DNA of 23,192 nt from IMG/VR virus record IMGVR_UViG_3300037843_000708, positions 1-23,192 of that record. One strand, given 5' to 3'. The notes beneath the pieces were generated by a model. That model made no database searches. It saw only the letters and a program-made list of their open reading frames with translations, and was not told the origin of the DNA. The position numbers and the translations under genes were made by a program. This DNA comes from a virus. This document shows, one piece after another, positions 3,484 to 20,347 of this stretch (position 1 is its first letter; each line of letters opens with the position of its first letter).

Positions 3484-4062
3484 TCAGGATCCGCTGGTTG
3501 AGAATTCGTTTTCGAAGGTTGTGCCAGCCTCGCCGAACGGCTGCGCTGTGACGGCGACGGTCTGCAGTATGTTCGACGTCGACGGCGGATAGTCCTCGTT
3601 CCATCGAACGGTCAGTCCGAGCCGGGCGTCGCAATAGTAAGTCTCGCCGTCTTTTGGAAAGGCAATCGTCTGTCGGTAACGGGGAAACGCTTCGATGAAC
3701 GGCTCCCCGCTCACCACATCAGGCAAAGCCTTGAACGTCGCGTCCGACAGCAGCGTGTTCTTGATGGTGAACATCAAGGCGGCCACCTTGCCGTTGAGCA
3801 CGACCGGATCTTCCATCGCATAGACGACCATGATGCCGAACATTGCATCGCAGACGAATTTCGGCGGCGCGACATCGGCATCACCGCGAGCGGGCGCCTC
3901 AGTCCCCATGAAGTAGACGCCGAGCGCCGGCAACTTATCCGGCTGCAGCGGCGGGATCGGGACGTGACGGATATCCTTGAACTTCGCCAGCCCCTTGATG
4001 CGCGAGATGATCGCCTCGACGATCTGTACTTCGGGAGCGTTCCCCCAATCGGCCGGCGTCAT
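3484..4062 (-). CDS. Putative tail terminator / neck protein (Mu gp37-like position)
   Basis: 192 residues. It begins with an acidic-amphipathic helix (PEVQIVEAIISRIKGL) and follows with PALGVYFMGTE, MFGIMVVYAMEDPVVLNGKV, then a helical stretch with FPRYRQTIAFPKDGETYYCDARLGLTVRW. This alpha-beta pattern, ending in strands containing ARLGLTVRW, resembles tail terminator proteins that cap the tube and join it to the neck. Its place upstream of DUF2635 and sheath is where Mu encodes gp37. The start ATG (4062) overlaps the stop of the preceding gene by 4 bp, indicating translational coupling. The role is inferred from shape and order; a minor neck protein is the alternative. Confidence 0.55.
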   Translation of the reverse strand: MTPADWGNAPEVQIVEAIISRIKGLAKFKDIRHVPIPPLQPDKLPALGVYFMGTEAPARGDADVAPPKFVCDAMFGIMVVYAMEDPVVLNGKVAALMFTIKNTLLSDATFKALPDVVSGEPFIEAFPRYRQTIAFPKDGETYYCDARLGLTVRWNEDYPPSTSNILQTVAVTAQPFGEAGTTFENEFSTSGS

Positions 4063-4466
4063 CGCACCGCCTTGGTCAATTGTGTCACCTGCGTCACCCT
4101 GGTCATGATCAACGTGGCGCCGCCCTGGCCGTCGGGCTGAAAATCGGTGATTTCCAGATCGATATTACTATGCGGCTCGAAAGTGCCTTGCCAATAGCCG
4201 AGCGGCAGATCACACACCCGCGACATGATCAAATCACCCTGCTTCGGTGGCACCGGGAAATCTTCGAGCCGAATGCCAAATTTCAATGATCGGTTGGACA
4301 GTATGCCGCCATCTTCGGTCACGATATCGACCTGCGTGATGGTCCAAATGCCGTGAGCGTCATAAGGCTCGGCGAACGGCTGAGATTCCTTCGGCAGCAC
4401 CCTGACCGGCTTGCCGAAAGTGCGGACGGCAGGTTTCAACACCAGTCGCGAGAAATCAATCGACAC
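4059..4466 (-). CDS. Putative head-tail joining protein (lambda FII-like)
   Basis: 135 residues, beta-rich, with alternating hydrophobic strands: HGIWTITQVDIVTEDGG, SLKFGIRLEDF, then PPKQGDLIMS, a turn that in FII-type proteins precedes the domain boundary, and ITDFQPDGQGGATLIMTRV. In FII-like and related neck proteins, a PxxGDxL turn followed by W/F-V-x-D-V-x-P-D-G-x-G is typical, which matches here. Such proteins attach to the head connector and receive the tail. It overlaps the next gene by 4 bp. The fold call is by pattern only and could be wrong; a general neck or tail role is likely from its neighbours. Confidence 0.55.
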   Translation of the reverse strand: MSIDFSRLVLKPAVRTFGKPVRVLPKESQPFAEPYDAHGIWTITQVDIVTEDGGILSNRSLKFGIRLEDFPVPPKQGDLIMSRVCDLPLGYWQGTFEPHSNIDLEITDFQPDGQGGATLIMTRVTQVTQLTKAVR

Positions 4467-4469
4467 GAT

Positions 4470-4937
4470 TCACGGCGCCTTCTTGACGTCGACAACATCA
4501 TCGGCTGGAGCCATGTTCGACATTCGTTGGTTGAACTGCTCGACAGTCTCAATCGACTTCTCGACTCGCTCGACATGAGACTTCATCCGGCCCATGTGCT
4601 CGCGCCCCTTCTGCATCGCATTAGCAAACCGCGGCATCAGCTCATCAGCAGTTTTCTCCAATTCGTTGGTGCCGGATTCCACCATATCAACCAACTCGGT
4701 CAGCTTGCTCACTGGTGCTGCCTCCGATGCCACTCCTCCAGCCAGCCCGACTTGAACAACTCGATCCTCTGGCCGGGAAACAATACTGTTATCCGCCGCG
4801 GCGGATTGCTGAAGCTCTTTGTTTGCTGCCCGCGACGCCGCGCGAAGATTGTCCGCAGCTGCCTCCACAGGCGTTCGACGAAAGGGCGGCCAGGAATCAT
4901 CGTCCCACGGCGCTCCGGTTGAATGCGGCCTTGCCAT
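4470..4937 (-). CDS. Hypothetical coiled-coil protein
   Basis: 155 residues, function not recognised. The N-terminus is polar (RPHSTGAPWDDDSWPPFRR), the middle is Ala-rich helical (AAADNLRAASRAANKEL), and residues about 80-140 form a probable coiled coil (KLTELVDMVESGTNEL, then KSHVERVEKSIETVEQF). There is no signal peptide or membrane segment. The start at 4937 was chosen because the preceding FkbM gene stops at 4941-4939, one base away, and because upstream residues in this frame are shadow sequence. It lies between the glycan cassette and the neck genes, so it may be a small structural or assembly helper of the neck, or the last gene of the cassette. No homology supports either. Confidence 0.6.
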   Translation of the reverse strand: MARPHSTGAPWDDDSWPPFRRTPVEAAADNLRAASRAANKELQQSAAADNSIVSRPEDRVVQVGLAGGVASEAAPVSKLTELVDMVESGTNELEKTADELMPRFANAMQKGREHMGRMKSHVERVEKSIETVEQFNQRMSNMAPADDVVDVKKAP

Positions 4938-4938
4938 C

Positions 4939-5751
4939 TCATCTCGCGATAACCTCGCGATCCTCAGATACCAGCCTCGCGCCAGTCGGCTCCGTGTCGA
5001 TTTGCGCATTGCACCTGGCAAAAACGATCGCCGAATCGACTTCACAGTTATCGAACATATTTTGCAAAACGCTCAAAAAGTCCGCTTTGGTGCAGCCGCC
5101 GTTCTTGCTTGGTATGCAAAGATGATCGAAGCCCGAAAGCGGTTCGATAAACTGTTCAACCGTAATGCCGGCGACGCGCGATAAGTGGTGCGGTAGGAAT
5201 TCCACCATCAGCGTTCTCGCCTGTCTCAATATCTTCGGCATGCCGAGAAAGGCAAAATACTCCGAGCCCTCGCAGTCCATGAAAACCATATCGAACGCTG
5301 GAAAGTCGGCAAGGTAGTCATCAAGCCGAACTCCCGGCACCGTCACGATGGCTGGATCGTCGCTAAAGTAACCCGCATCCTGAAACTTCGGCATGCGCTT
5401 GGATCCGCCGCTGTTTTCGGTGTTGGCCAAGAACTCTATTGCTCTGCTCTCGTCATTAGCTGCGACGTTGAAGGCGCGTATGTTGTCGCAACCGTTATGA
5501 GCGATGTTACGCTCGAGCAAGACGAATGTTTCCGGATTGGCTTCAATCGCCACCAATTCCCGGCATGCCCTCGATAGCGGAATGGCGACAGTGCCGACAT
5601 GCGCCCCGACAACGAGGATTGTCGATTGTGGATTCGATAGCAGGCTTCTAGCGAGATCGATCTCTGCCAGACTCAGGTTATCGCCGAGGAACCGATCTCT
5701 TGCGTCAACGCAGAACTCGCCGTGCGGCGTTTTCAGCAACTTGTTTGTCAC
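4939..5751 (-). CDS. FkbM family SAM-dependent methyltransferase
   Basis: 270 residues. The Rossmann SAM-binding site is seen as ILVVGAHVGTVAIP (residues 45-58), followed by the acidic residue after strand 2 in VAIEANPE (E70). The FkbM hallmark strand DMVFMDCEGSEYF (154-166) matches the family's D-x-x-x-x-D-x-E-G-x-E motif. FkbM-type enzymes O-methylate sugars or other small acceptors, so this protein probably caps a glycan made by the neighbouring enzymes. I chose the GTG at 5751, which overlaps the previous stop as GTGA. A GTG at 5766 would add five residues and is also possible. It is the last enzyme of the cassette in reading order. The acceptor is unknown. Confidence 0.82.
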   Translation of the reverse strand: MTNKLLKTPHGEFCVDARDRFLGDNLSLAEIDLARSLLSNPQSTILVVGAHVGTVAIPLSRACRELVAIEANPETFVLLERNIAHNGCDNIRAFNVAANDESRAIEFLANTENSGGSKRMPKFQDAGYFSDDPAIVTVPGVRLDDYLADFPAFDMVFMDCEGSEYFAFLGMPKILRQARTLMVEFLPHHLSRVAGITVEQFIEPLSGFDHLCIPSKNGGCTKADFLSVLQNMFDNCEVDSAIVFARCNAQIDTEPTGARLVSEDREVIAR

Positions 5752-6437
5752 GATAAAGCACCACACAGCAGCCGCTCGAGCATCAACTGATATTGCGGCG
5801 AAGCCAGCACGTAGGGCGGCGCGGCCGATATTCTCTCCGCGATCTGATCCTCAGACAACACGTGTGGCCAATTAAACATGCCGTGGAAGCCGAAAGTTGC
5901 ATGCGGTGGCGTATGCTCAAACGAAAAGCTGCTTGCTACCTCATCGGGCGCCCAGCGGAACCCGCAAGATTCAAGAAAGCGGCGATGCGTTCGACATAGC
6001 GCGCTGTCTTCCGGCCAGGTCAGATCTATCTCATTCTTATGCTCTGCAACGAATCGCGTGAGCCTGGCGCTGCGCAAACTGAACCCGCCGTTACCGACGG
6101 CGAGCTCCTGGTGGAACGGCCACGGGGCGCCAATGTAATCGTAGGTCAACCATTCGTCCCGCCACAGTTCCGGATGAGTGATCCAGGAGTCCCACTGCGC
6201 GATGAGAAAATGCGTGCTGCGCACCTCCCGCGGCACGGCGTACCACATCAACTCCTGCACCTGCGCCATGGTCCGCGCTTCGCATGGCATATGCCGGCCA
6301 ATGCCGATATCTCGATCAGATAAGATCACCACGTCGGCGAATTCAGCGCAGCTCAGACATTGCTCGAGCGAAAGTCGCAGCAGATCGTGGCAGACGGCAT
6401 CGACGGCGACCAGTGTGACGTCAGGCAACCGCAGCAT
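5748..6437 (-). CDS. DUF5672 family protein, probable glycosyltransferase
   Basis: 229 residues. Marks of DUF5672 are seen in order: an N-terminal beta strand with VTLVAVD, the acidic metal-site-like IAQWDSWI (79-86), YDYIGAPWP (99-107) and VGNGGFSLRS (114-123), then a Trp/His-rich C-terminal half with FGFHGMFNWP. The family has a GT-A-like fold and is found in polysaccharide and surface-glycan clusters; a transferase activity is likely but not proven for the family. It overlaps the upstream methyltransferase gene by 17 bp and the downstream FkbM gene by 4 bp, so all are probably co-translated. The soluble protein has no signal peptide. Confidence 0.8.
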   Translation of the reverse strand: MLRLPDVTLVAVDAVCHDLLRLSLEQCLSCAEFADVVILSDRDIGIGRHMPCEARTMAQVQELMWYAVPREVRSTHFLIAQWDSWITHPELWRDEWLTYDYIGAPWPFHQELAVGNGGFSLRSARLTRFVAEHKNEIDLTWPEDSALCRTHRRFLESCGFRWAPDEVASSFSFEHTPPHATFGFHGMFNWPHVLSEDQIAERISAAPPYVLASPQYQLMLERLLCGALS

Positions 6438-7659
6438 CGGCGAAGTCCTGCGCCGAGATCATTTGGATGAAACGGCCGCGGAAACCCATGCCGCGCCATC
6501 GCGCCTCGATCTCGTCGCGGATGTGCCAGGCCATGTTCAAGAGTGGAGTGTCTGGTATGGATCTCTCAAACGGATAATTAGCATCCGACAGGATCGGGAT
6601 GCGCGTTCCTGGCACGTAATGACCGATCTTCTTCGATCCATCGATCTGATAGACGGCGGAGATGTGGTTGTGGTCAAGGCCCAGCATACTAATTAGGAGC
6701 GGCGCCCGCGCCGGCAGCGCCACGGCGCCGATCGGTGCGATGATGAAACCGTGGAACTCGGTTTCAGCTAGAATCTGTGCACGTTTGTTTTTCTTCCATT
6801 CCTTGATTTGCCGATTGAGGCCGGCCAGCGCGAATGCGAAGTCTTTTTCCTTGTCGATGAACGGCTGATAACCCGAGTGCGATCCGTGCTTCAGGAACAC
6901 CCGAATATTGCCGCCATAGCGCTTCGGAAACATTGCCCAGCTCACGTACATTCCGAGCGTGCGCGACATGTGCAAGAAAGATGTATAGCTGTAGGTGCGC
7001 AGATGCTCGTGAAAGAACGTATCGAATTGCTGCCGCTCGATTACCGAACCGAGATAATGGTTCTCGATGATGACCATCGTATCCGGCTTGAGAAGGACGC
7101 GAACTGCCTCAATCAAGGCCGGCAGATCCTCGATGTGGGCAAACACGTTGGTGAAGGTGATCAGATCCGGAAACCCAAACTCGGAAAGAAACTTTTCGGC
7201 GGTAGACTTAGCAAAGAACCGCTGCCACACCGTATGTCCCTTGCTGCAGGCCTCGGTAGCCGCCTCAGTCGGCTCGATGCCAAACGTCGCAGCGCCACGG
7301 CGCGCAAACACCGAGAGAAGGCTGCCGTCGTTGCAGCCGATATCGAGGACCTTGCGACCTTTGACCAGGCCATAATGCAGCTCAGCGGCATTCACCAGAT
7401 CTTCCATGCCGTCGAGTACATCTTTGGTCTGATGCGATCGGTGCGTATAGCCCGGTTGAAACAATCTCTCCTTATCGAGCTGCCAGCGCAGATGCGCGGT
7501 CTTGCACCTATCGCAAAACAGAACTTCCAACGCATACTTCTGACACGAACGCTTATCGCCGATAGGAACCAAATCGTCCTGCAGCGGATGCTCGCCGAGA
7601 TTCAGCGCATTGATCAGATTGCCGGCACCACAGACCTCGCAACTGCTGATCTCGCGCAT
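6421..7659 (-). CDS. Sugar C-methyltransferase-like SAM enzyme (Methyltransf_13/14 type)
   Basis: 412 residues in the three-part layout of NDP-sugar C-methyltransferases (TylCIII/NovU-like). The N-terminal zinc site has Cys7, Cys10, Cys49 and Cys52 (CEVC, CDRC). The central SAM domain has VLDIGCNDGSLL (104-115), GIEPT and LITFTNVFAHIED. The conserved HEH signature is in FDTFFHEHLRTYSY (212-225). The C-terminal region holds an additional alpha-beta domain (GAVALPARAPLLISMLGL). These enzymes add a methyl group to a carbon of a nucleotide-linked keto-deoxysugar. The start ATG (7659) lies 2 bp after the previous stop; the longer upstream frame is shadow. No gene making the keto-sugar substrate is present, so the host would have to supply it. 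The exact position methylated cannot be read from sequence. Confidence 0.85.
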   Translation of the reverse strand: MREISSCEVCGAGNLINALNLGEHPLQDDLVPIGDKRSCQKYALEVLFCDRCKTAHLRWQLDKERLFQPGYTHRSHQTKDVLDGMEDLVNAAELHYGLVKGRKVLDIGCNDGSLLSVFARRGAATFGIEPTEAATEACSKGHTVWQRFFAKSTAEKFLSEFGFPDLITFTNVFAHIEDLPALIEAVRVLLKPDTMVIIENHYLGSVIERQQFDTFFHEHLRTYSYTSFLHMSRTLGMYVSWAMFPKRYGGNIRVFLKHGSHSGYQPFIDKEKDFAFALAGLNRQIKEWKKNKRAQILAETEFHGFIIAPIGAVALPARAPLLISMLGLDHNHISAVYQIDGSKKIGHYVPGTRIPILSDANYPFERSIPDTPLLNMAWHIRDEIEARWRGMGFRGRFIQMISAQDFADAAVA

Positions 7660-7661
7660 GA

Positions 7662-9977
7662 TCACGATACCACGGTGCCCTCGATGATCACGGTCTCGAT
7701 GTCGTTGAACTTCTTGCCGATCACCTTGTGGTGACCTTCGACGCCGCGCAGTGCTTGGTGCTCGGATTCCCCGGGTCGCGCCGCTGCGAGCTGATCGAAA
7801 CCAGCGTAGAACAGCGTCGTCTCGAGCAGCGATTGCGTCCACGCCATCTTGTGGCCATGGGCATAGAGGATCGCGTGCATGGCGCCGCGCGCCGTGGCAC
7901 CGACCTTCTGCCATTTGGTGGTAAAGCCAAAATACTCGGCATCACCTTTGTTGCGAATACTCTCCAGCGACGGCACGGCGATGCGCACGACACCGCACGG
8001 CTTAATCACGCGATGACATTCCTTGAAGAATGCGATTGCCCCGTAATAATCGACATGCTCGACGACGTGCTCGGCGAAAATGTAATCCGCCGAGTTTTCC
8101 GGAAACGGCAACGGCTTTGATATGTCGATCTGGCTGTCGAAGTTCTGCCAGCCATCGAGCTTATTGCTGCCGCAGCCCAGATTGATTTTCAAGCCTGGCG
8201 ATTTCAAGGGCGCAGCGATGGCTACGACCCGACGCGGCGAATTAGCTTCATTCAGACTGACCTCGAGAAAGCGATCATAGACCGGATCGTTGTCCCAGCA
8301 ATGCGTCACCCAATCCAGATTTAGCTCTGCGATATTGTCCGCAGTGATCTGATTCTTGTCTCCCCGCCATGCCTTCCACGAAGCCATCTGCAGCTTGTCG
8401 CCGCAAAGTCCGCGCACGACCGCCTCTGGCGACGGGCTCTCTCTGCGGTTGGGCCAATCGTAGCGTTGAGTGAGCTTGCTCTCGACCAAGAACTCGGTCG
8501 AGAAGAACATCAATCCGGTTTCGACCCAACCGCGCATTTCGTATTTGGTGCCGAGCACCGGGATCGACTGCACCGCGATTTTCTGCCGCCGCATCTGCCG
8601 CACGATCGGTAGTACCGGCAGGCGGAACAGTGAATCGCCTTCGATATGCACGACGTAGTCGTAGCCGGCCTGGACTGCGGCATCGAGACCATAACAGAAC
8701 GCTCGGCCCCAACCGTCACGACCTTTACGTGACAGATGCCCGACATTGTCGGGGAACGAATAAACCATCTGCCGCGCGGGCGTGCCTGAGTATGGCAGGA
8801 ATGCGCCGTGCTTGTCAGCAATCAGCTTGGCGACACCGGGACACAGCGGCGAATGTGAATCGACCACCAGCAGATCGCAATCTGCATTGCGTTTTCGCGT
8901 CAGCGTCAAGCAATGGTCGAACAATCGCGCGCGATGTGCTGAATCCACATAGCAGGTGACGACGATCAGCGTCCGCAGTAATGGCCGAACATTGGCAGCA
9001 ACAAAATCGCGGATCCGCGCCTTCGCCGGCTCGAGGCTGATGGTCTTGTCACAAGCATGATCGAACGCGTGACAATCGCACGGCTGGTCGGGCTCGATGA
9101 ACAGCGACGGTGCCAAGTGTCGAGCCGGTGCCTGCGTGGTCTTCGAACTTTCGTGACCGCCGTAAACCGTGATCGCTGGGGTGCCGACGGCAAGCGCCAT
9201 GACCGGAAAGAAGCCGGCATTGCCGAAGGCCAGATCGGCCTCGGCAAACAGGGCTGCCATGGTTTCGAAGTCGAGCTCGCCACTGTGCAGCTTGACATCG
9301 GCATCCTGTTCCGGCCCGACGATCCATTCCTTTCCCGGCTTCAGATCGGCGATGCTGGCAACGAAGAACTGCGGTCGAATGCTTTGAAACAAGGCAGCGT
9401 AAGCCGCTGGATCGGGGCTCCGTGACGGACAGCTCCAACCGGTATTAAGAATGATCGGGCGATAGACCATCAACGGCCGCTCGCCGATATTCCATGATCG
9501 GATCAATGCCAGCGCCTTGTCCCGCCAGGCCGGCAAGATTGGTAGGGAAAAATCCGGCTTCGCCGGCATCTGCAGCCCGACCGAAGAGAACTGCGCCGCC
9601 AAGATGGATCCATGACGGGCTATTTCGGGGTGCCGATAATCGATCCTTTTTGTCGCAGCGTTGGACGGTGCGGCGCTGGTGGGGCATTGAAAGCCCTCGC
9701 GGATCCGCGCCCCGCCATGAGTTATGATATTAACGCCATCTCCGATCAGGTCGTGGAACATCGCCACGTTGCGGGCTTTGAGCCAAATGCTGTTGGTCTT
9801 TTTCAGTTCGCGAAAGACGGCACGGCATTGCAGATTATCGCCAATTCCCCACGGACATTCGATGATGATCGGCGGGCGGACAGACGCCGGCACTGGCTGG
9901 ACAGATACCGCCACTGGCCGCGCCGGAGGCGGATGCAGTAGATGCGGCGGAAAATGAACTCGACCCGGGCCGGGCAT
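7662..9977 (-). CDS. Three-domain fusion: GT9-like transferase, GT-A-like transferase, SAM methyltransferase
   Basis: About 771 residues. Residues ~36-325 resemble the GT9/ADP-heptosyltransferase fold (GIGDNLQCRAVFRELKKT; ADLAFGNAGFFPVMALAVG; TPAITVYGGHES; a Cys cluster PCDCHAFDHACDK). Residues ~336-580 look like a GT-A domain (TLIVVTCYVDSAHRARLF, DLLVVDSHSP, and VVHIEGDSLF with a DxD-like acidic site at 446-449). Residues ~597-771 form a class I methyltransferase (INLGCGSNKLDGW, DYIFAEHVVEHV, CHRVIKPCGVVRIAVPS). It should extend and methylate a glycan on an unknown acceptor. The start is uncertain: ATG at 9977, or GTG at 10004 (GTGA overlap) or 10013. The N-terminus is Pro-rich and without signal peptide. 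It is by far the longest cassette gene. Confidence 0.8.
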   Translation of the reverse strand: MPGPGRVHFPPHLLHPPPARPVAVSVQPVPASVRPPIIIECPWGIGDNLQCRAVFRELKKTNSIWLKARNVAMFHDLIGDGVNIITHGGARIREGFQCPTSAAPSNAATKRIDYRHPEIARHGSILAAQFSSVGLQMPAKPDFSLPILPAWRDKALALIRSWNIGERPLMVYRPIILNTGWSCPSRSPDPAAYAALFQSIRPQFFVASIADLKPGKEWIVGPEQDADVKLHSGELDFETMAALFAEADLAFGNAGFFPVMALAVGTPAITVYGGHESSKTTQAPARHLAPSLFIEPDQPCDCHAFDHACDKTISLEPAKARIRDFVAANVRPLLRTLIVVTCYVDSAHRARLFDHCLTLTRKRNADCDLLVVDSHSPLCPGVAKLIADKHGAFLPYSGTPARQMVYSFPDNVGHLSRKGRDGWGRAFCYGLDAAVQAGYDYVVHIEGDSLFRLPVLPIVRQMRRQKIAVQSIPVLGTKYEMRGWVETGLMFFSTEFLVESKLTQRYDWPNRRESPSPEAVVRGLCGDKLQMASWKAWRGDKNQITADNIAELNLDWVTHCWDNDPVYDRFLEVSLNEANSPRRVVAIAAPLKSPGLKINLGCGSNKLDGWQNFDSQIDISKPLPFPENSADYIFAEHVVEHVDYYGAIAFFKECHRVIKPCGVVRIAVPSLESIRNKGDAEYFGFTTKWQKVGATARGAMHAILYAHGHKMAWTQSLLETTLFYAGFDQLAAARPGESEHQALRGVEGHHKVIGKKFNDIETVIIEGTVVS

Positions 9978-10000
9978 CGGTCTTTTTTCTCTAGCTCTGT

Positions 10001-10657
10001 TCACTGCGCCCACGTCAACGCATCCTCGATCGACATTTTCGCAAAGCAGCTGATCGCGCTCGAGGGCGAAGCATTCACAACGTCAACGCCAAGTTCTTTG
10101 AGCGATGGCGCCATGGCATCGAATTGTTTCGCCCACGACGGCCAACTTTGATCATTGGCTTGATGGTGCCAGGGATAGGCATCGTGATAGTGATGCTGCC
10201 CATCGATCAGACCATAATCATAACCGAGCAATACGATGCGCTTGGCGCCCTTCAGCACCGCGAGATTAAGCGCCGCATAACCGGACGTGCCTCCGGTCGC
10301 GAGCGTTGCCGGATCGTCGGACAATCCGTCCGGAATGTTTTTCAGATAGATCGCGCCGGCGACGGGTCCGATCTGTTTCCACCAGGTATTGCCCGGCGCC
10401 AGATAGAGTTCGCGATGTTTTGCGAAGGCCTCGAGCGGCGCAGTCGTATTCTGGACGAATAATCGATCGATGGAAATGCCGGCGCTGCAATCGACATGAA
10501 AGATCGATTGATTGACACCGAGCACGTAACCGAGAAATGGCAGTTCGCCGAAATCAAAGCCCTTGAGCGAAGCGCCGCCTCCGACCAGGAAGGCGGGGCG
10601 GTCGGACCATGATGGCGGTCCGACCGCGCCGAAGGCGACCGGCGGCTGCTCGTCCAT
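10001..10657 (-). CDS. MptE-like / DUF115-type glycan-related protein
   Basis: 218 residues. FLVGGGASLKGFDF (23-36) and TGGTSGYAALNLAVLKGAK plus RIVLLGYDYG (121-149) are the two glycine-rich motifs of the DUF115/6-hydroxymethylpterin diphosphokinase MptE-like fold. That fold also occurs in Maf flagellin glycosylation proteins and sialyltransferase-like enzymes. Proteins of this type occur in many phages, often beside glycosyltransferases. It probably binds or transfers a nucleotide-activated group such as a nonulosonate; this is inference. It is the first gene of the cassette in reading order, 10 bp after the stop of the preceding small gene, and its end overlaps or abuts the start of the large fusion enzyme. 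Exact activity is not assignable. Confidence 0.72.
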   Translation of the reverse strand: MDEQPPVAFGAVGPPSWSDRPAFLVGGGASLKGFDFGELPFLGYVLGVNQSIFHVDCSAGISIDRLFVQNTTAPLEAFAKHRELYLAPGNTWWKQIGPVAGAIYLKNIPDGLSDDPATLATGGTSGYAALNLAVLKGAKRIVLLGYDYGLIDGQHHYHDAYPWHHQANDQSWPSWAKQFDAMAPSLKELGVDVVNASPSSAISCFAKMSIEDALTWAQ

Positions 10658-10667
10658 TTACGCGATA

Positions 10668-10979
10668 TCAGGCGACTTTGCGGCCCTCTGCGCTGAAACT
10701 CGGTCCCTCTCCGCGCGGTATCGGCTTGACATTCGGATCGACCAGAAAGCCGATCTTGCGGAGCCGTTTGACTTCGTCGGGCGGCAATTCGATCTCGTTG
10801 CCTTCCTGCAAATATACAGGCTGCGCCCGTTTGATTGGTTTACCGTCGACGTCATGACCGATGATCATCTGATTGGCCGGATCGGCAAACATAATGGTGC
10901 GACCTTGCGCAATGGTAGCGCGCATCTTCTGATCCCTCAGATCGAGATTGTTCGTCTTCTGGTCGTTTGGATTCGCCAT
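10668..10979 (-). CDS. Small conserved phage protein downstream of the capsid gene
   Basis: 103 residues, function not recognised. The sequence is hydrophilic: an Asn/Gln-rich start (ANPNDQKTNNLDLRD), then a compact segment with GRTIMFADPANQMIIGHD and KRAQPVYLQEGNEIELP, then PPDEVKRLRKIGFLVDPN, which reads like a small SH3-like or beta-hairpin fold followed by a helix. The start ATG at 10979 is fixed by AAAGGAG 9 bp upstream; a start 13 codons earlier lacks one. It sits between the major capsid and glycan genes, where lambda-type phages place head-completion genes, so a head-completion or connector role is possible but unproven. Confidence 0.65.
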   Translation of the reverse strand: MANPNDQKTNNLDLRDQKMRATIAQGRTIMFADPANQMIIGHDVDGKPIKRAQPVYLQEGNEIELPPDEVKRLRKIGFLVDPNVKPIPRGEGPSFSAEGRKVA

Positions 10980-11052
10980 AACGGATAACTCCTTTGTTGT
11001 CCTAAATGCCGAGGCCACCGCATTGCGGCCCCGCGCCGTTTAAAGCCTCAGC

Positions 11053-12123
11053 TCACCAGAGCTGCGGCGGGCAGACGTTGGCCGCCAGCGCGGCATTGAC
11101 GCGCGACGGAATCACGATCGGCGACGATTGCATCATGATGTAGCGTTGCGCCGGGTCTTCCGACAGCCAGGTCTTCGGCGCAAACGGCATCGGCCCATAG
11201 TTGAACGCTGGGTCCATGATCTGCCCGAAGGCGCGGGTGCCCATCATCATCTCGCCGGACATGATGACGGTGCCATCCATCAGCATCGGCTGTTCGACGT
11301 TGTCGTCATCGACAAACCATTCGTTGTAGATCCAGCAATCGTATTGGCCCCATCGCCCCTTGTAGATCGCCCCCTTCATGATGCGGGCGCCGGGATCGAT
11401 GGCGTTGCCGAAATCACCCAGCTTCGGATAGTAGAGGGCTCCCTTGACCAACGGATCGGCCATAAAGCCCTGGAACGGCGTCGTGGTGAACACGATATCG
11501 GTCACCACGGCGCCGGACTTCTTCAGGATCGTGCGCTGCCAGGTCTCGATGTCGGTGGTCGGCGAGGCATTGCCGTCGGCGATATTCGCCAGGGTCCATT
11601 GCGCAGTGCCGGTCTTGGCCACGGTCAACGCCGGGTCGCGGCCGAAGTTGACTACGACGGTCTCGAAACCCTCGCCGGCGATGGTGACCGTGCCTGTCGT
11701 GAGCGCCGAGGCGGCCATCCATTCCAGGCGCCGGGTCAGCACGTCGATCTGATCCGTCATCTCGAATGCGATGTTGGCCATCTCACGTTCGGCGCCGGTC
11801 AATTCGCCGCCGATCCGCTCGCCGATCATGCGCCGGACCGGCTTGCGCAGATCCGGAGCCCGCTTGTCTTTGATGTAGGCGGGCTTGAAGGTGTTGGTCT
11901 GAACGCGGCGCTGTTCGACCAGCTTGCCCTCGACCAGCGGCGACACGAATGGCGCCATGCGGCGTTTGCCGACGTCGACGTCGATCGACACGAATTCGCT
12001 GTCCGCGCCGACGATGTTGGGAAAGAACTTGTCCAACAGATACGTCACCGGACGTTTCAGGTTCGGCACCACCTGCACCAGCGTGTTGGTGTCGTAAATC
12101 AGATTCCCGCCTGGGGTCGCCAT
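11053..12123 (-). CDS. Major capsid protein, lambda gpE family (PF03864)
   Basis: 356 residues, close to lambda gpE (341). This is the HK97-fold shell protein. Family marks: an N-arm with YDTNTLVQVVPNLKRP and FLDKFFP-like YLLDKFFPN, IDVDVGKRRMAPFVSP, the KPAYIKDKRAPD and RMIGERIGGELTGAERE segments, the FGRDPALTV strand, WYNEW-like WIYNEWFVDDD near the C-terminal third, and FGQIMDPAFNYGPM. The start at 12123 (ATG GCG ACC) follows AGGAGCTAAT-like sequence. Decoration genes precede it, as in lambda. It is a likely acceptor of any virion glycosylation by the cassette downstream, but no sequence evidence shows this. Confidence 0.94.
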   Translation of the reverse strand: MATPGGNLIYDTNTLVQVVPNLKRPVTYLLDKFFPNIVGADSEFVSIDVDVGKRRMAPFVSPLVEGKLVEQRRVQTNTFKPAYIKDKRAPDLRKPVRRMIGERIGGELTGAEREMANIAFEMTDQIDVLTRRLEWMAASALTTGTVTIAGEGFETVVVNFGRDPALTVAKTGTAQWTLANIADGNASPTTDIETWQRTILKKSGAVVTDIVFTTTPFQGFMADPLVKGALYYPKLGDFGNAIDPGARIMKGAIYKGRWGQYDCWIYNEWFVDDDNVEQPMLMDGTVIMSGEMMMGTRAFGQIMDPAFNYGPMPFAPKTWLSEDPAQRYIMMQSSPIVIPSRVNAALAANVCPPQLW

Positions 12124-12152: not shown

Positions 12153-12581
12153 TTAGGCCGTCAGATTGACGCCCTTGACGAAAATTCCGAATGGCCGCAG
12201 CGCGGCCTGTGCCGTAAGAAGCGAAATGCTCGGATCGAGCGTTAAGCACTCGGCGTTAAATTCGCCGTCGAGATAGACGCCGGCGCGGACGTCGCCTTCC
12301 GTTGCATCGGTCAGCGCAACGAGGATGGCGATGCATTGCTGACTGCCGTCGGTCGCGGTCAAAACAGCGGGGCGATAGAGCCCGGCGCTGGTCTTGCCCA
12401 TCACTGTGCCGCGTCGATACAGGCCGCCGCCGGTCACAGTGACGGTATCGCTGACCGGATCGGTCATGCTCGCGATCAGATCATCGGGCCGAAAGACGTC
12501 CCGCAACAGCGGCCATTGCTGAAACGGATCATCTACCGTGCTCGGCGGCGCCGGACCCGGACGTATATCGTAATCGGACAT
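12153..12581 (-). CDS. Head decoration protein, lambda gpD-like, short paralogue
   Basis: 142 residues. The C-terminal half carries the gpD-family pattern: ATDGSQQCIAILVAL, DVRAGVYLDGEFNAECL, then a helix and RPFGIFVKGV. The N-terminus is Pro/Asp-rich, as expected for the flexible arm that binds capsid threefold sites in lambda. The ATG at 12581 has GAGGAG 10 bp upstream; a start six codons earlier is less likely. It is clearly paralogous to the neighbouring larger protein over its last 65 residues but lacks that protein's ~90-residue insertion. Trimers of such proteins stabilise the expanded head against DNA pressure. Confidence 0.85.
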   Translation of the reverse strand: MSDYDIRPGPAPPSTVDDPFQQWPLLRDVFRPDDLIASMTDPVSDTVTVTGGGLYRRGTVMGKTSAGLYRPAVLTATDGSQQCIAILVALTDATEGDVRAGVYLDGEFNAECLTLDPSISLLTAQAALRPFGIFVKGVNLTA

Positions 12582-12628
12582 GTGCCGGGCGCTCCTCAAT
12601 CGATTAAGAGAAACGTCGGCGGCAATTA

Positions 12629-13369
12629 TCAGGGATTGGTTGCGGTCGGATCGGTCGGATCGGCCGCCGACACTGCGCCCTTGAGATAGATCGCAATCGA
12701 GCGCAATGCCGATCTCATCTGATCGGGCGTGAAGTTCGAATCGTAGATGATCGCCTTTTCGTTGAACTCGCCGGACAGATATATGCCGGCGCGCACGCCG
12801 CAGGCCGCTCCGGACAACGTGCCTCCTTGCGTCGGATCGGCGACGTCGACCAGGATCGCAATCGCCGTCTGGCTGCCGTCGCTGGTACCTTCGGCGACCG
12901 CGACGTATGGGCCCGTGCCAGCCGCGATCTGGATCGTGAAGCTATCGCCCGCCGCCATGGCGTTGGTATGCGCCGTAAAGGTGAAGTTGATGTCGCTCGA
13001 CGTGAACGCACCGGCTGTGGTCTTCGCAGCGATGACTTCGCCCTCCGGATCGAACACCTCATAGGCGGTCGGACCAGAGAATACGACCGAGTAGGTGCCA
13101 GGCTTGTAGGCCGAGCCCTTCGAGATCGCGCTGAAGGTGCCATCGCCGACGTTGCCGGAGGCGGCAGCAGCCGATCCGACATCGCCGGACGTCAACTGCC
13201 CAAGCACCTGGCCGCGCTGCAGGATGGCAGTGCCGCCGATCAAGACTTCCGCGGTAACCGGAGGCCTGTTTCCGGCTGCGATCAATTGATCGGGAAGATA
13301 GGCCTGCGAAGTCGCCGACGGATTCTGCGGATTGTCGGAGACGTTGGTCACGGTAGTAGGAGCGGCCAT
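12629..13369 (-). CDS. Head decoration protein, lambda gpD-like, with inserted beta domain
   Basis: 246 residues, about twice lambda gpD (110). The gpD core is split. Residues ~35-62 give VTAEVLIGGTAILQRGQVLG, and residues ~153-232 give SDGSQTAIAILVDV, GVRAGIYLSGEFNEKA and SALRSIAIYLKGA. Between them, residues ~63-152 form an extra, Gly/Ser/Thr-rich beta domain (YKPGTYSVVFSGPTAYEV, FDPEGEVIA, AAGDSFTIQIAAG). Similar insertions occur in decoration proteins of other phages and should project from the capsid surface. The start ATG at 13369 has a purine-rich AGAAGGACCATTCCC leader. It precedes the short paralogue and capsid genes, in lambda-like order. Confidence 0.87.
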   Translation of the reverse strand: MAAPTTVTNVSDNPQNPSATSQAYLPDQLIAAGNRPPVTAEVLIGGTAILQRGQVLGQLTSGDVGSAAAASGNVGDGTFSAISKGSAYKPGTYSVVFSGPTAYEVFDPEGEVIAAKTTAGAFTSSDINFTFTAHTNAMAAGDSFTIQIAAGTGPYVAVAEGTSDGSQTAIAILVDVADPTQGGTLSGAACGVRAGIYLSGEFNEKAIIYDSNFTPDQMRSALRSIAIYLKGAVSAADPTDPTATNP

Positions 13370-14837: not shown

Positions 14838-16507
14838 TGGGCTTCCGGTTTCTTGGCAACTTCCGTCGCCGTGAATTGACCGGCCCATTCGGGCCGCGGG
14901 ATGCCGAGTTCGTCGAGCCGCTCGAGTTCGTATCTGCGTTGCTCGAGCACCTCCTCCCATTCGAGGCCTTGCTCGGCGCATTCCTGCTCCAGCGTCGACA
15001 ATGCGCCATCCATGGCCATGACGGCGCCTTGACGTTCGGCGACGGGGTCGACCCAACCTCTGCCGGGTCCCATCCAGCGGCAGCGCGCATATGCCGTGCG
15101 ATATTTGACAAACTCTTCGAAACGTGACGCGCGACTTGAGCCGATGCCTTTCGGCAAAGGCAGGTCGTCATTGACCATCGACTCTTCCAGCCAGCCGGCA
15201 CGGATCTGACTGGCGAAAGCGAAAGCAAAATTGTCCCGCCGGCGCCCCAGCGTCTTCCAGGCCTCGAGCATCGCGCCGCGCGCGCTCGAATAATTCACAT
15301 TGGTCCAATTGTTGCTTACTTGTTGATCCGAGAGCCCAAGCCCGGAGGCGACATTGCGCAATGCTGCGCCTTCAAAGGCCTCGAAATTGCCGCTCGGCCG
15401 CTCCGCGCGCACCGTGTTGATCTTCTCACCGGGGAACAGGATCGGCAGCCTGGCATTACCAAGCATGATCTTTTTTTTGTCGTGAGCTGCGATTCGTTGT
15501 TCCTGATAGAAATTCAACTTCTCGCCGTCATCCAGCGCCTCAGTGACCATCTCGCGATCGAACGGCGACTCGATGTAAGCCGCGAAGATCGCGTTGATGA
15601 TCGCCGCGTTGAGTTCGACGCCGTCGTATTTCACCAGCATCTTCAAACGCTGTAGCACGGGTGCAAAGATGCCGGCTCCGCCGCGATGCTGGCCGGAGCG
15701 ATCGCTGTCGAAATAATGCACGACGGCGGGACGACCCCACTCCGTCTCGCGCGGCACCCGTTCCCAGGTCATCGACTCGACGGCGCTGAACCAATCGCCG
15801 GCGTGGGCCTTGCGGATGTGATAGGCGATCGCCGCGCCGTATTTGTCGATCTCGACGCCACCCCGTAGCACCTGTTGATCGAAGCGAAGCTGCGGATTCG
15901 ACAAACGGTCCGGATCGACCATCTGCACGGCCGTCGAGTAACGCGCCTTCCCAAACCCGACGCGTTCCGGGATCCACATCATCACTGCAAGCGCATCGCC
16001 ATCGACAAGTAGATGACGGAAGCCGAGAAAACACATCTGGCTGAAAGTCAGATTGCGCGCGGCGTCGCAGTATCGTCCTAGATCATGTGCCCAGCTGCGC
16101 CAATTTCCGTCGACCGCGCGGGCAAATTCCTTGGACCAAACATGATCAAAGGCCTTGATGCCGGTCTCGTTGGCGAGAAACTGATAATCCGGCCTGGTGA
16201 TCGGTCGCAAGTGAGCACCAATCGCATTGTCGAGAATCCGCGTGACGGCACCGGAGGCCCAGCCATCGTTGCGCACCATGTCGCGCACGCGCGAGACGAT
16301 GCGATCGCGATAGATATTGAGCTCGGCGTCCGGCGACCAGAGATATGGCTGCCATGCAGCCATATGTTGCCCGTAAAGGTCCGCGGCATCATACGCCGGG
16401 CCGCCGTAACCGCCTTCGCCTCCCGACAACGCACGCGAACGCATCGGGCGGCGCGGTGGCAGCGGCCTTTCGTCTGGCCCGTAAAGAACAACTCCCTTCT
16501 CAGTCAT
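14834..16507 (-). CDS. Portal protein, lambda gpB family (PF05136)
   Basis: 557 residues, close to lambda gpB (533). It forms the dodecameric portal vertex through which DNA is packaged and to which gpW and FII-type proteins attach. Family marks: RDRIVSRVRDMVRNDGWASGAVTRI, LRPITRPDY, the FLGFRHLLVDGDALAVMMW block, VQMVDPDRLSNP, HYFDSDRSGQHRG, the long LKMLVKYDGVELNAAIINAIFAAYIESP helix region cut here as separate motifs, and LSDQQVSNNWTNVNYSS near residue 410. The start at 16507 lies 9 bp after the gpW stop. The final codons overlap the protease start. Confidence 0.93.
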   Translation of the reverse strand: MTEKGVVLYGPDERPLPPRRPMRSRALSGGEGGYGGPAYDAADLYGQHMAAWQPYLWSPDAELNIYRDRIVSRVRDMVRNDGWASGAVTRILDNAIGAHLRPITRPDYQFLANETGIKAFDHVWSKEFARAVDGNWRSWAHDLGRYCDAARNLTFSQMCFLGFRHLLVDGDALAVMMWIPERVGFGKARYSTAVQMVDPDRLSNPQLRFDQQVLRGGVEIDKYGAAIAYHIRKAHAGDWFSAVESMTWERVPRETEWGRPAVVHYFDSDRSGQHRGGAGIFAPVLQRLKMLVKYDGVELNAAIINAIFAAYIESPFDREMVTEALDDGEKLNFYQEQRIAAHDKKKIMLGNARLPILFPGEKINTVRAERPSGNFEAFEGAALRNVASGLGLSDQQVSNNWTNVNYSSARGAMLEAWKTLGRRRDNFAFAFASQIRAGWLEESMVNDDLPLPKGIGSSRASRFEEFVKYRTAYARCRWMGPGRGWVDPVAERQGAVMAMDGALSTLEQECAEQGLEWEEVLEQRRYELERLDELGIPRPEWAGQFTATEVAKKPEAQ

Positions 16508-16516
16508 GGAAGCCTA

Positions 16517-16765
16517 TCACCGGAAATAAGGCCGTATTGCCCGGCGCCCGGAATTGATGCCGAGTTGCCGTTGCAACAATCCGATCCAATTCTGAAGCGC
16601 AGCCTCATTCGTCCGTTCATAGGTCACGGATTTCCCGTCATAGGAGACGGTGACCGGCCTGCCCTCAGTGACAAGTTGCTTGTATGCGAGCTGCGCCTCG
16701 GTCAGCCACTTCTGCAGTTCTGCCTGCGGCGTGCCCGCGAGAATAGTGTTGTTCGGATTGAACAT
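16517..16765 (-). CDS. W: Head-tail joining protein gpW
   Basis: 82 residues against 68 in lambda gpW. The alpha-helical hairpin with a central beta turn is visible: QAELQKWLTEAQLAYKQLV, then GRPVTVSYDGKSVTYER, then NEAALQNWIGLLQRQLG and a basic tail. gpW plugs the portal and allows FII and tail to attach. Its position between large terminase and portal is exactly that of lambda W. GAGGG lies 6-7 bp before ATG at 16765. Confidence 0.9.
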   Translation of the reverse strand: MFNPNNTILAGTPQAELQKWLTEAQLAYKQLVTEGRPVTVSYDGKSVTYERTNEAALQNWIGLLQRQLGINSGRRAIRPYFR

Positions 16766-19513: not shown

Positions 19514-20116
19514 TCACCGTGGTCTACGCGTCTTCATCGCACGCGCCATGGCAGCTGGGAACGACTCCCGCAACTCTCTCAACATCATCTCCGCAAAAGT
19601 TTCGCGGAAAGGAACGTCCTTTTGAACTCCGACCGCCGAGCGAAGCGTGTACATAAGCCTCAGTCGCCTGCCCTTGCGCGCGTAACGAACCCACAGTGCC
19701 GGACCTTTCCCATGGAGATCGGCAACGAAAGAATTCGCGAGCGAACGCGGCCACTTTGAGCGGGACACGCCTCGCGCACCGCGCTTGACGTTGCTTTCAA
19801 CGGGGATAGCAAACTTCCCTTTGGCTTGCTTTGTTCCCCCGTCGGCGTGCAGTGCCAAATGTGCGCGGCCGAGACTGTCGTAAATCTCGACGCGTAGATT
19901 GTGCTTGGTCGCCGGCTTAACCTGCAAGGCCCTCTTGATGAAGCCAGGATTGCGCTGGGTAACATGCTGAGGCCACTCGTCCACCAAGGCTTGCTTGGTA
20001 ATATTCGCAGCCTCGGTCAAAGCGAGAGCAAGTGCGAACGGCACCTGGTCGAGCGCGCCGTCGAGTTCCACCGCGCGCTTCTCGAATTCGCTGAGATTGA
20101 ACTGCAGGTCGATCAT
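19514..20116 (-). CDS. gpZ-like tail completion / minor tail protein
   Basis: 200 residues, near lambda gpZ (192). Common marks with the gpZ family (PF06763-like): an N-terminal helix (FEKRAVELDGALDQVPFA), then an Ala-rich helix around ALALALTEAANITKQAL, a strand-turn region (VKPATKHNLRVEIYDS), a basic centre, VRYARKGRRLRLMYTLRS, and a final helix (ETFAEMMLREL). Such proteins act at the tail-neck junction late in tail assembly. The ATG at 20116 overlaps the previous stop as ATGA. It is out of the usual order: normally gpZ lies among the neck genes, but here it is upstream of the terminase. The assignment is by pattern, and an HK97-gp10-like protein is the alternative. Confidence 0.6.
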   Translation of the reverse strand: MIDLQFNLSEFEKRAVELDGALDQVPFALALALTEAANITKQALVDEWPQHVTQRNPGFIKRALQVKPATKHNLRVEIYDSLGRAHLALHADGGTKQAKGKFAIPVESNVKRGARGVSRSKWPRSLANSFVADLHGKGPALWVRYARKGRRLRLMYTLRSAVGVQKDVPFRETFAEMMLRELRESFPAAMARAMKTRRPR

Positions 20117-20301
20117 ACCGCGCGCTCCTCGAGCACTGCGCGGCGACGTTCCGTGATCTTTCCGTCCGATGTGAACAAGCCCGCCTCGACGAGCTGTTGC
20201 CGAGCTTTTGGCAACAGTTCTCGCCATAGATCGCTTTGATGGCGCGCACCGAACGGCGAAAGGCCGCAGCGGGCGGAGCGTGCGGGTGAAGATTGTATCA
20301 T
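20113..20301 (-). CDS. Small hypothetical protein coupled to the gpZ-like gene
   Basis: 62 residues, not recognised. It is basic, with a compact helical part (RHQSDLWRELLPKARQQLVE) and a C-terminal helix (ITERRRAVLEERA). The stop overlaps the next start as ATGA, which is the main argument that it is real. No Shine-Dalgarno-like sequence is seen before ATG at 20301, and an in-frame stop lies a short distance upstream, so no longer form is available. Confidence 0.5.
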   Translation of the reverse strand: MIQSSPARSARCGLSPFGARHQSDLWRELLPKARQQLVEAGLFTSDGKITERRRAVLEERAV

Positions 20302-20347
20302 TTTGGGAGGTCCAGGGTGTGCGACTCACACTCGCTAGACATGACGA

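Follow-up and report, generated by a model that had tools for sequence, protein, structure and literature searches.

A candidate virion glycosylation cassette in the head-neck slot of a soil phage and its conserved core in other tailed phages

Introduction

Why would a tailed phage carry a run of sugar-related genes in the middle of its structural operon? The question is raised by a soil phage represented by IMG/VR record IMGVR_UViG_3300037843_000708. The window analyzed here is that entire record (23192 bases, ending inside the tape-measure gene on one side), and nearly all of its genes lie on the minus strand. An initial annotation, made from the sequence, had pointed to a five-gene insert at positions 4939-10657, between the head and neck genes, and proposed that it builds a methylated glycan on the virion, possibly to evade host defenses or antibodies or to alter adsorption. 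Phage particle glycosylation is already known, and the cassette would be a variant of it with a widespread, uncharacterized core. We report that the cassette occupies a fixed slot as an accessory, exchangeable insert, and we judge it somewhat likely to be an accessory glycosylation module made together with the virion proteins, in which sugar would be transferred to a virion protein in the cytoplasm, then extended and methylated.

Results and discussion

The cassette consists of five minus-strand open reading frames (ORFs), whose Pfam and PHROG matches confirm that they are coding and whose positions and tight coupling agree with the initial annotation. From the head side, it begins with an MptE-like, sialyltransferase-like protein (10001..10657; 218 amino acids [aa], one domain), followed at a gap of -13 nucleotides (nt) by a three-domain fusion (7662..10013; 783 aa). 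Next come a sugar 3-C-methyltransferase-like gene (6421..7665), starting either at GTG 7665, with a 4-nt GTGA overlap, or at ATG 7659, with a gap of +2 nt; a DUF5672 gene (5748..6437; gap -17 nt); and an FkbM-family methyltransferase gene (4939..5766), which overlaps its neighbor by 19 nt with start 5766 or by 4 nt with start 5751. The outer gaps are equally short, with 10 nt to the head-side gene g10668 and 1 nt to g4470, which is followed by the gene of the head closure protein Hc1. The flanks were also as claimed, namely, the major capsid protein (MCP), decoration, protease, portal, and TerL genes on the head side and Hc1, sheath, and tube genes on the neck and tail side.

The families represented are predicted to build and methylate glycans, as the initial annotation had held. 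In the fusion, a GT9-like domain (residues about 46-340) is followed by a second transferase-like domain (about 343-600) and a Methyltransf_11 domain (about 605-780; PF08241, E 3.7e-7). The N-terminal part matches phrog_6804 (E 9e-27 over residues 51-326), and the first domain is called GT9-like only, because its score against PF01075 (13.9 bits) is below the cut-off of 22. The middle domain was not matched by any entry of Pfam, PHROGs, or the PDB sequences; its homologues stand as separate ORFs in loci L003 and L004, and full-length homologues of the fusion (51-55% identity) occur in L003, L004, and L253. The third protein combines zinc-binding, S-adenosylmethionine (SAM), and C-terminal domains (PF08421, PF13489, and PF08484, all over cut-offs) and aligns over its full length, including an HEH stretch, with TcaB9 and the D-mycarose 3-C-methyltransferase 4rv9 (E 5.7e-39). 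The DUF5672 protein (PF18922, 73.1 bits versus a cut-off of 24.4) is probably a glycosyltransferase, and the FkbM protein is recognized by both PF05050 (49 bits versus 22.7) and TIGR01444 (80 bits versus 37.7). Most of the names given initially are thus backed by databases, but the MptE-like and GT9 matches fall below Pfam cut-offs and the middle domain of the fusion is unmatched. An AlphaFold2 model of the fusion was discarded (predicted local distance difference test score [pLDDT] 38), and the one PDB match of the GT9 profile, a 35-residue stretch of SAKe6BE-L2, was disregarded.

Relatives of the window were found using the MCP (11053..12123, minus strand; phrog_29, E 2.6e-76) as an anchor, yielding viral loci L007-L086 and loci from genomes L087-L166. 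The MCP-to-sheath distance has a median of 1401 nt in these relatives, compared with 7898 nt in the window and 5687 nt in L009, the only one of 131 relatives exceeding 3000 nt. The slot is bounded on the head side by g10668 (10668..10982, minus strand), which has only a weak head-tail connector match (phrog_2322, E 0.049) and whose homologue follows the MCP in relatives, and on the tail side by Hc1 (4059..4466, minus strand; phrog_82, E 7.5e-4). These two genes are 6202 nt apart in the window and at most 46 nt apart in 16 of 25 relatives, including the rows nearest to the window in the MCP tree (L008, L014, and L015; 4 to 11 nt). The slot of L009 holds a different glycosyl set, with an MptE-like gene (57% identity), a separate GT9 gene, and a Methyltransf_24 gene, and those of L007 and L023 also contain an MptE-like gene. 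Carriers (the window, L007/L009, and L023) are scattered through a 22-row clade of phages lacking transferases in the slot; gains and losses are not countable because some contigs of this clade end within the region. Since near relatives hold other glycosyl cassettes in the same place, we conclude that the cassette is accessory and exchangeable, inserted at a fixed slot. The G+C content of the cassette (about 54-60%) is similar to that of its flanks (56-65%).

A ParA/MinD-like ATPase gene (277-285 aa) is also found in the head-neck slot of L007, L009, L010, and L023, after the g10668 homologue and before the MptE-like or Hc1 gene, with or without an MptE-like gene; the L009 copy matches PF01656 at E 1.9e-5, slightly under the cut-off.

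Which part of the cassette recurs in other phages? Single-protein scans of viral contigs returned one locus for the MptE-like protein and two for the fusion, and alignments were needed to find more. With a GT9-domain alignment as the query, 152 viral contigs were recovered, of which 80 were kept. Core-module profiles were built from members of this search plus those of D3, S20, and P1, and three of the loci counted below were thus also used to train the profiles. Among 81 loci with a GT9 domain, a figure that counts contigs rather than independent events given the near-copies among them, 71 have an MptE-like ORF (fused with GT9 in a single ORF in 13, such as L176, L186, and L193) and 66 have a Methyltransf_24 ORF within 1.3 kb. 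The three genes are consecutive in L009, L168, and L169. All recognized structural ORFs around the module (265/265) are on its strand, and among the 38 loci with flanks of at least 5 kb upstream and 3 kb downstream, 29 have a head gene upstream, 20 of them with an additional neck or tail gene downstream. Kindred cassettes thus recur on the same strand near structural genes of other phages. The initial view of a single insert within the structural operon was supported as well.

The same module order, between head and tail genes, is present in the isolated phages D3, Psp6, and PAJU2; the label "structural protein" of PAJU2 ORF010 was given by its depositors, and its basis in data was not traced. 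In Tetraselmis virus S20, the stretch from the head genes to Hc1 contains two sialyltransferase-family genes, two glycosyltransferase genes, and a methyltransferase gene. In CcrColossus, sialyltransferase-like and GT9 genes are located close to those for the tail and lysis, and XacN1 has MptE-like relatives. Genomes of the class to which the Bradyrhizobium prophage locus belongs (n = 385) gave no match to the GT9 domain in a search without a positive control that, in the rows listed, scored at most five candidates per genome, and no prevalence is claimed from it.

The initial annotation had regarded the five genes as a conserved unit, a claim that did not hold. The full set was found only in the window and in no other locus examined. 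Judging from these sequences, the unit that is kept is smaller and comprises the predicted MptE-like, GT9-like, and SAM methyltransferase genes. Components mix freely: relatives of the C-methyltransferase (60%) occur close to capsid-like and collagen-like genes in L262/L263, and DUF5672 is found together with a distantly related C-methyltransferase in L266 and the uncultured phage LR756502 and together with an MptE-like gene in L270/L271. In these mix-and-match loci, genes without a homologue in the window were labeled by reading the sequences rather than by database scans.

Two other arrangements of these genes were observed. L254 has two MptE-like genes, one directly after a capsid-like gene and the other after neck-like genes (7983-8585 and 16158-16549). 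L003 and L004 carry larger sugar cassettes (about 6.8-15.2 kb), containing the triple fusion, TylF-type or radical SAM genes, a GHMP kinase, an epimerase, FkbM, and duplicated fusion domains.

What reaction might the MptE-like protein catalyze? It matches phrog_4603, named alpha-2,3-sialyltransferase (E 1.8e-27), and only weakly PF01973 (19.5 bits); because this score is under the Pfam cut-off of 34.6, we did not file the protein as a Maf. Its AlphaFold2 model is of moderate confidence (pLDDT 67; predicted template modeling score 0.72). The top seven Foldseek matches of this model were all sialyltransferases, and a second-look alignment placed the Maf flagellin glycosyltransferase 5mu5 first (Z 11.8; root-mean-square deviation 4.7; 192 of 218 residues). 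The kind of fold thus appears clear in the model, while the reaction is not fixed by it. Nearly level with Maf are the archaeal 6-hydroxymethylpterin pyrophosphokinase 8sd5 (Z 11.5) and, at Z about 10, thiamine pyrophosphokinases, with CstI/CstII following at Z 9.6. A pyrophosphokinase-type enzyme, in a cassette producing or altering a small molecule or nucleotide instead of a protein-linked glycan, nevertheless seems improbable to us given the Foldseek ranking, the agreeing PHROG name, and the fact that most loci pair the MptE-like gene with genes for a GT9-like protein and a methyltransferase.

We favor cytoplasmic decoration of a virion protein because the cassette is late and on the strand of the structural genes, has no clear transmembrane protein among its five products in a hydropathy scan, and encodes a Maf-like fold. 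In such a scheme, the MptE-like Maf/sialyltransferase-fold enzyme would act in the cytoplasm, attaching the first sugar directly to a virion protein, and the GT9-like, middle-domain, and DUF5672 transferases would extend the chain. The C-methyltransferase could provide a branched sugar from a host nucleoside diphosphate (NDP)-keto-sugar, and the Methyltransf_11 and FkbM enzymes may cap the chain by methylation.

The same genes could instead remodel the host surface (lipopolysaccharide [LPS], capsule, or exopolysaccharide), for example, preventing released virions from binding debris or excluding other phages. GT9-type enzymes are best known from the LPS core, pathways for surface polysaccharides include FkbM proteins and sugar C-methyltransferases, and the GT9 protein of L009 weakly matches RfaQ/heptosyltransferase III. 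We nonetheless consider this explanation rather unlikely, since the strand and position of the module track structural genes. Moreover, Gtr-type seroconversion cassettes require a flippase and combine this membrane protein with a polytopic transferase, a composition that the window cassette, with no clear membrane-spanning protein, does not share.

Several observations weigh against decoration of the virion. No structural gene was recognized in 21 of the 81 module loci, nor in 9 of the 38 well-flanked ones, and some relatives lie away from head genes, beside tail-fiber-like genes in L003/L004 and between sheath and tube in L169. The pyrophosphokinases match the moderately confident MptE-like model about as well as Maf does. 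A comparison of the MCP and decoration proteins of carriers and noncarriers revealed no feature tied to the cassette and no obvious acceptor. The activities, the order of the steps, the acceptor on the virion, and the benefit to the phage are all inferred. Finally, the MptE-fusion pair of L253 (52% and 55% identity) stands outside the structural operon, beside DnaB-like and DNA methyltransferase genes. This neighborhood would suit modification of phage DNA with hypermodified, sugar-bearing bases, and phage glycosyltransferases can indeed act on DNA (reviewed in PMC12619734). Most module loci are, however, among head and neck genes, and no base-hydroxylating enzyme was recognized in the window, which is part of the phage genome, making this possibility very improbable in our view.

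How does virion decoration by this cassette compare with known systems? In the mycobacteriophages Che8, Corndog, and Myrna, the capsid and tail tube are proven acceptors of virion glycosylation (Freeman et al. 2023, as relayed in PMC12363180 and PMC12619734). Both include phage-encoded glycosyltransferases, those of the window being predicted from phrog_4603, phrog_6804, and DUF5672 matches; this comparison is by kind of gene, not by homology to Che8 gp110 or Corndog gp38. Unlike the mycobacteriophage systems, the window combines a predicted Maf-fold enzyme with a GT9-like enzyme and methyltransferases in a head-neck location. Maf adds O-linked sugars to flagellin while it is still in the cytoplasm, prior to export (PMC4065374); the PF01973 domain of Maf is similar to Cst-II (PMC11339370). 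The MptE-like protein is predicted to share the fold of this catalytic domain, and Maf offers a model for direct cytoplasmic transfer to Ser/Thr; the phage protein differs in having one 218-aa domain instead of three, a PF01973 score below the cut-off, and no flagellin context.

Among phage modules, those of D3 (orf7, orf12, and orf13), PAJU2, and Psp6 resemble the window in gene order (MptE-like, GT9-like, methyltransferase) and in their location between head and tail genes, but they consist of three separate short genes, about 28-33% identical, without C-methyltransferase, DUF5672, or FkbM. We found no reported function for them in the literature consulted. The late genes pmgO-pmgP-ppp-pmgQ of P1 include an MptE-like relative (pmgO; 28.9% over 92%) and, three genes further along, one annotated as a glycosyltransferase, whereas no GT9 or C-methyltransferase is noted there. 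All four are nonessential for lytic growth (PMC10695390), as would be expected of a decoration, which supports decoration of the virion. TcaB9/MtmC-type sugar 3-C-methyltransferases share the three domains of the window protein and align with it over the full length, yet they belong to antibiotic pathways, and no NDP-sugar dehydratase is seen in the window. In XacN1, at least two glycoproteins were detected by proteomics (PMC5852040).

A broader proposal, which we advance tentatively, is that of a widespread system based on a stand-alone Maf-fold transferase, which would O-glycosylate a virion protein in the cytoplasm as particles assemble; the glycan would be finished by a GT9-like enzyme and a methyltransferase, and the window would hold an enlarged version adding a C-methylated sugar. 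We found no paper describing the MptE-like/GT9-like/methyltransferase module in the open-access literature, which misses most subscription journals. Virion glycosylation is known from few cases, and the three-gene module, which occurs near structural genes in many unrelated tailed phages, including the long-sequenced isolates D3 and PAJU2, would make its commonness in phages of Gram-negative bacteria testable. If true, this proposal would give a function to genes now labeled hypothetical or sialyltransferase.

Across the window, the gene order on the head side is DNA methyltransferase, small genes, Neck1-like, TerS, TerL, Ad1, portal, protease, two decoration proteins, MCP, and g10668; after the cassette come g4470, Hc1, neck, sheath, tube, chaperone, and tape measure. 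Some of these labels were assigned from position. The small coiled-coil-like protein g4470 (4470..4937, minus strand) is part of the inserted stretch, coupled to FkbM (gap of 1 nt) and Hc1 (gap of 3 nt); it had no PHROG match, and no relative was recognized. L022 and L028 have an insertion between the Hc1 and neck homologues, encoding a 140-143-aa protein that has an apparent signal sequence and one His-rich end. Two decoration proteins of 246 and 148 aa, both phrog_49, are encoded at 12153-13369, where most near relatives have a single one in the region examined. A tail-completion/Neck1-like protein (19514-20329; phrog_1924 and phrog_27) is encoded upstream of the terminase genes, apart from the other neck genes.

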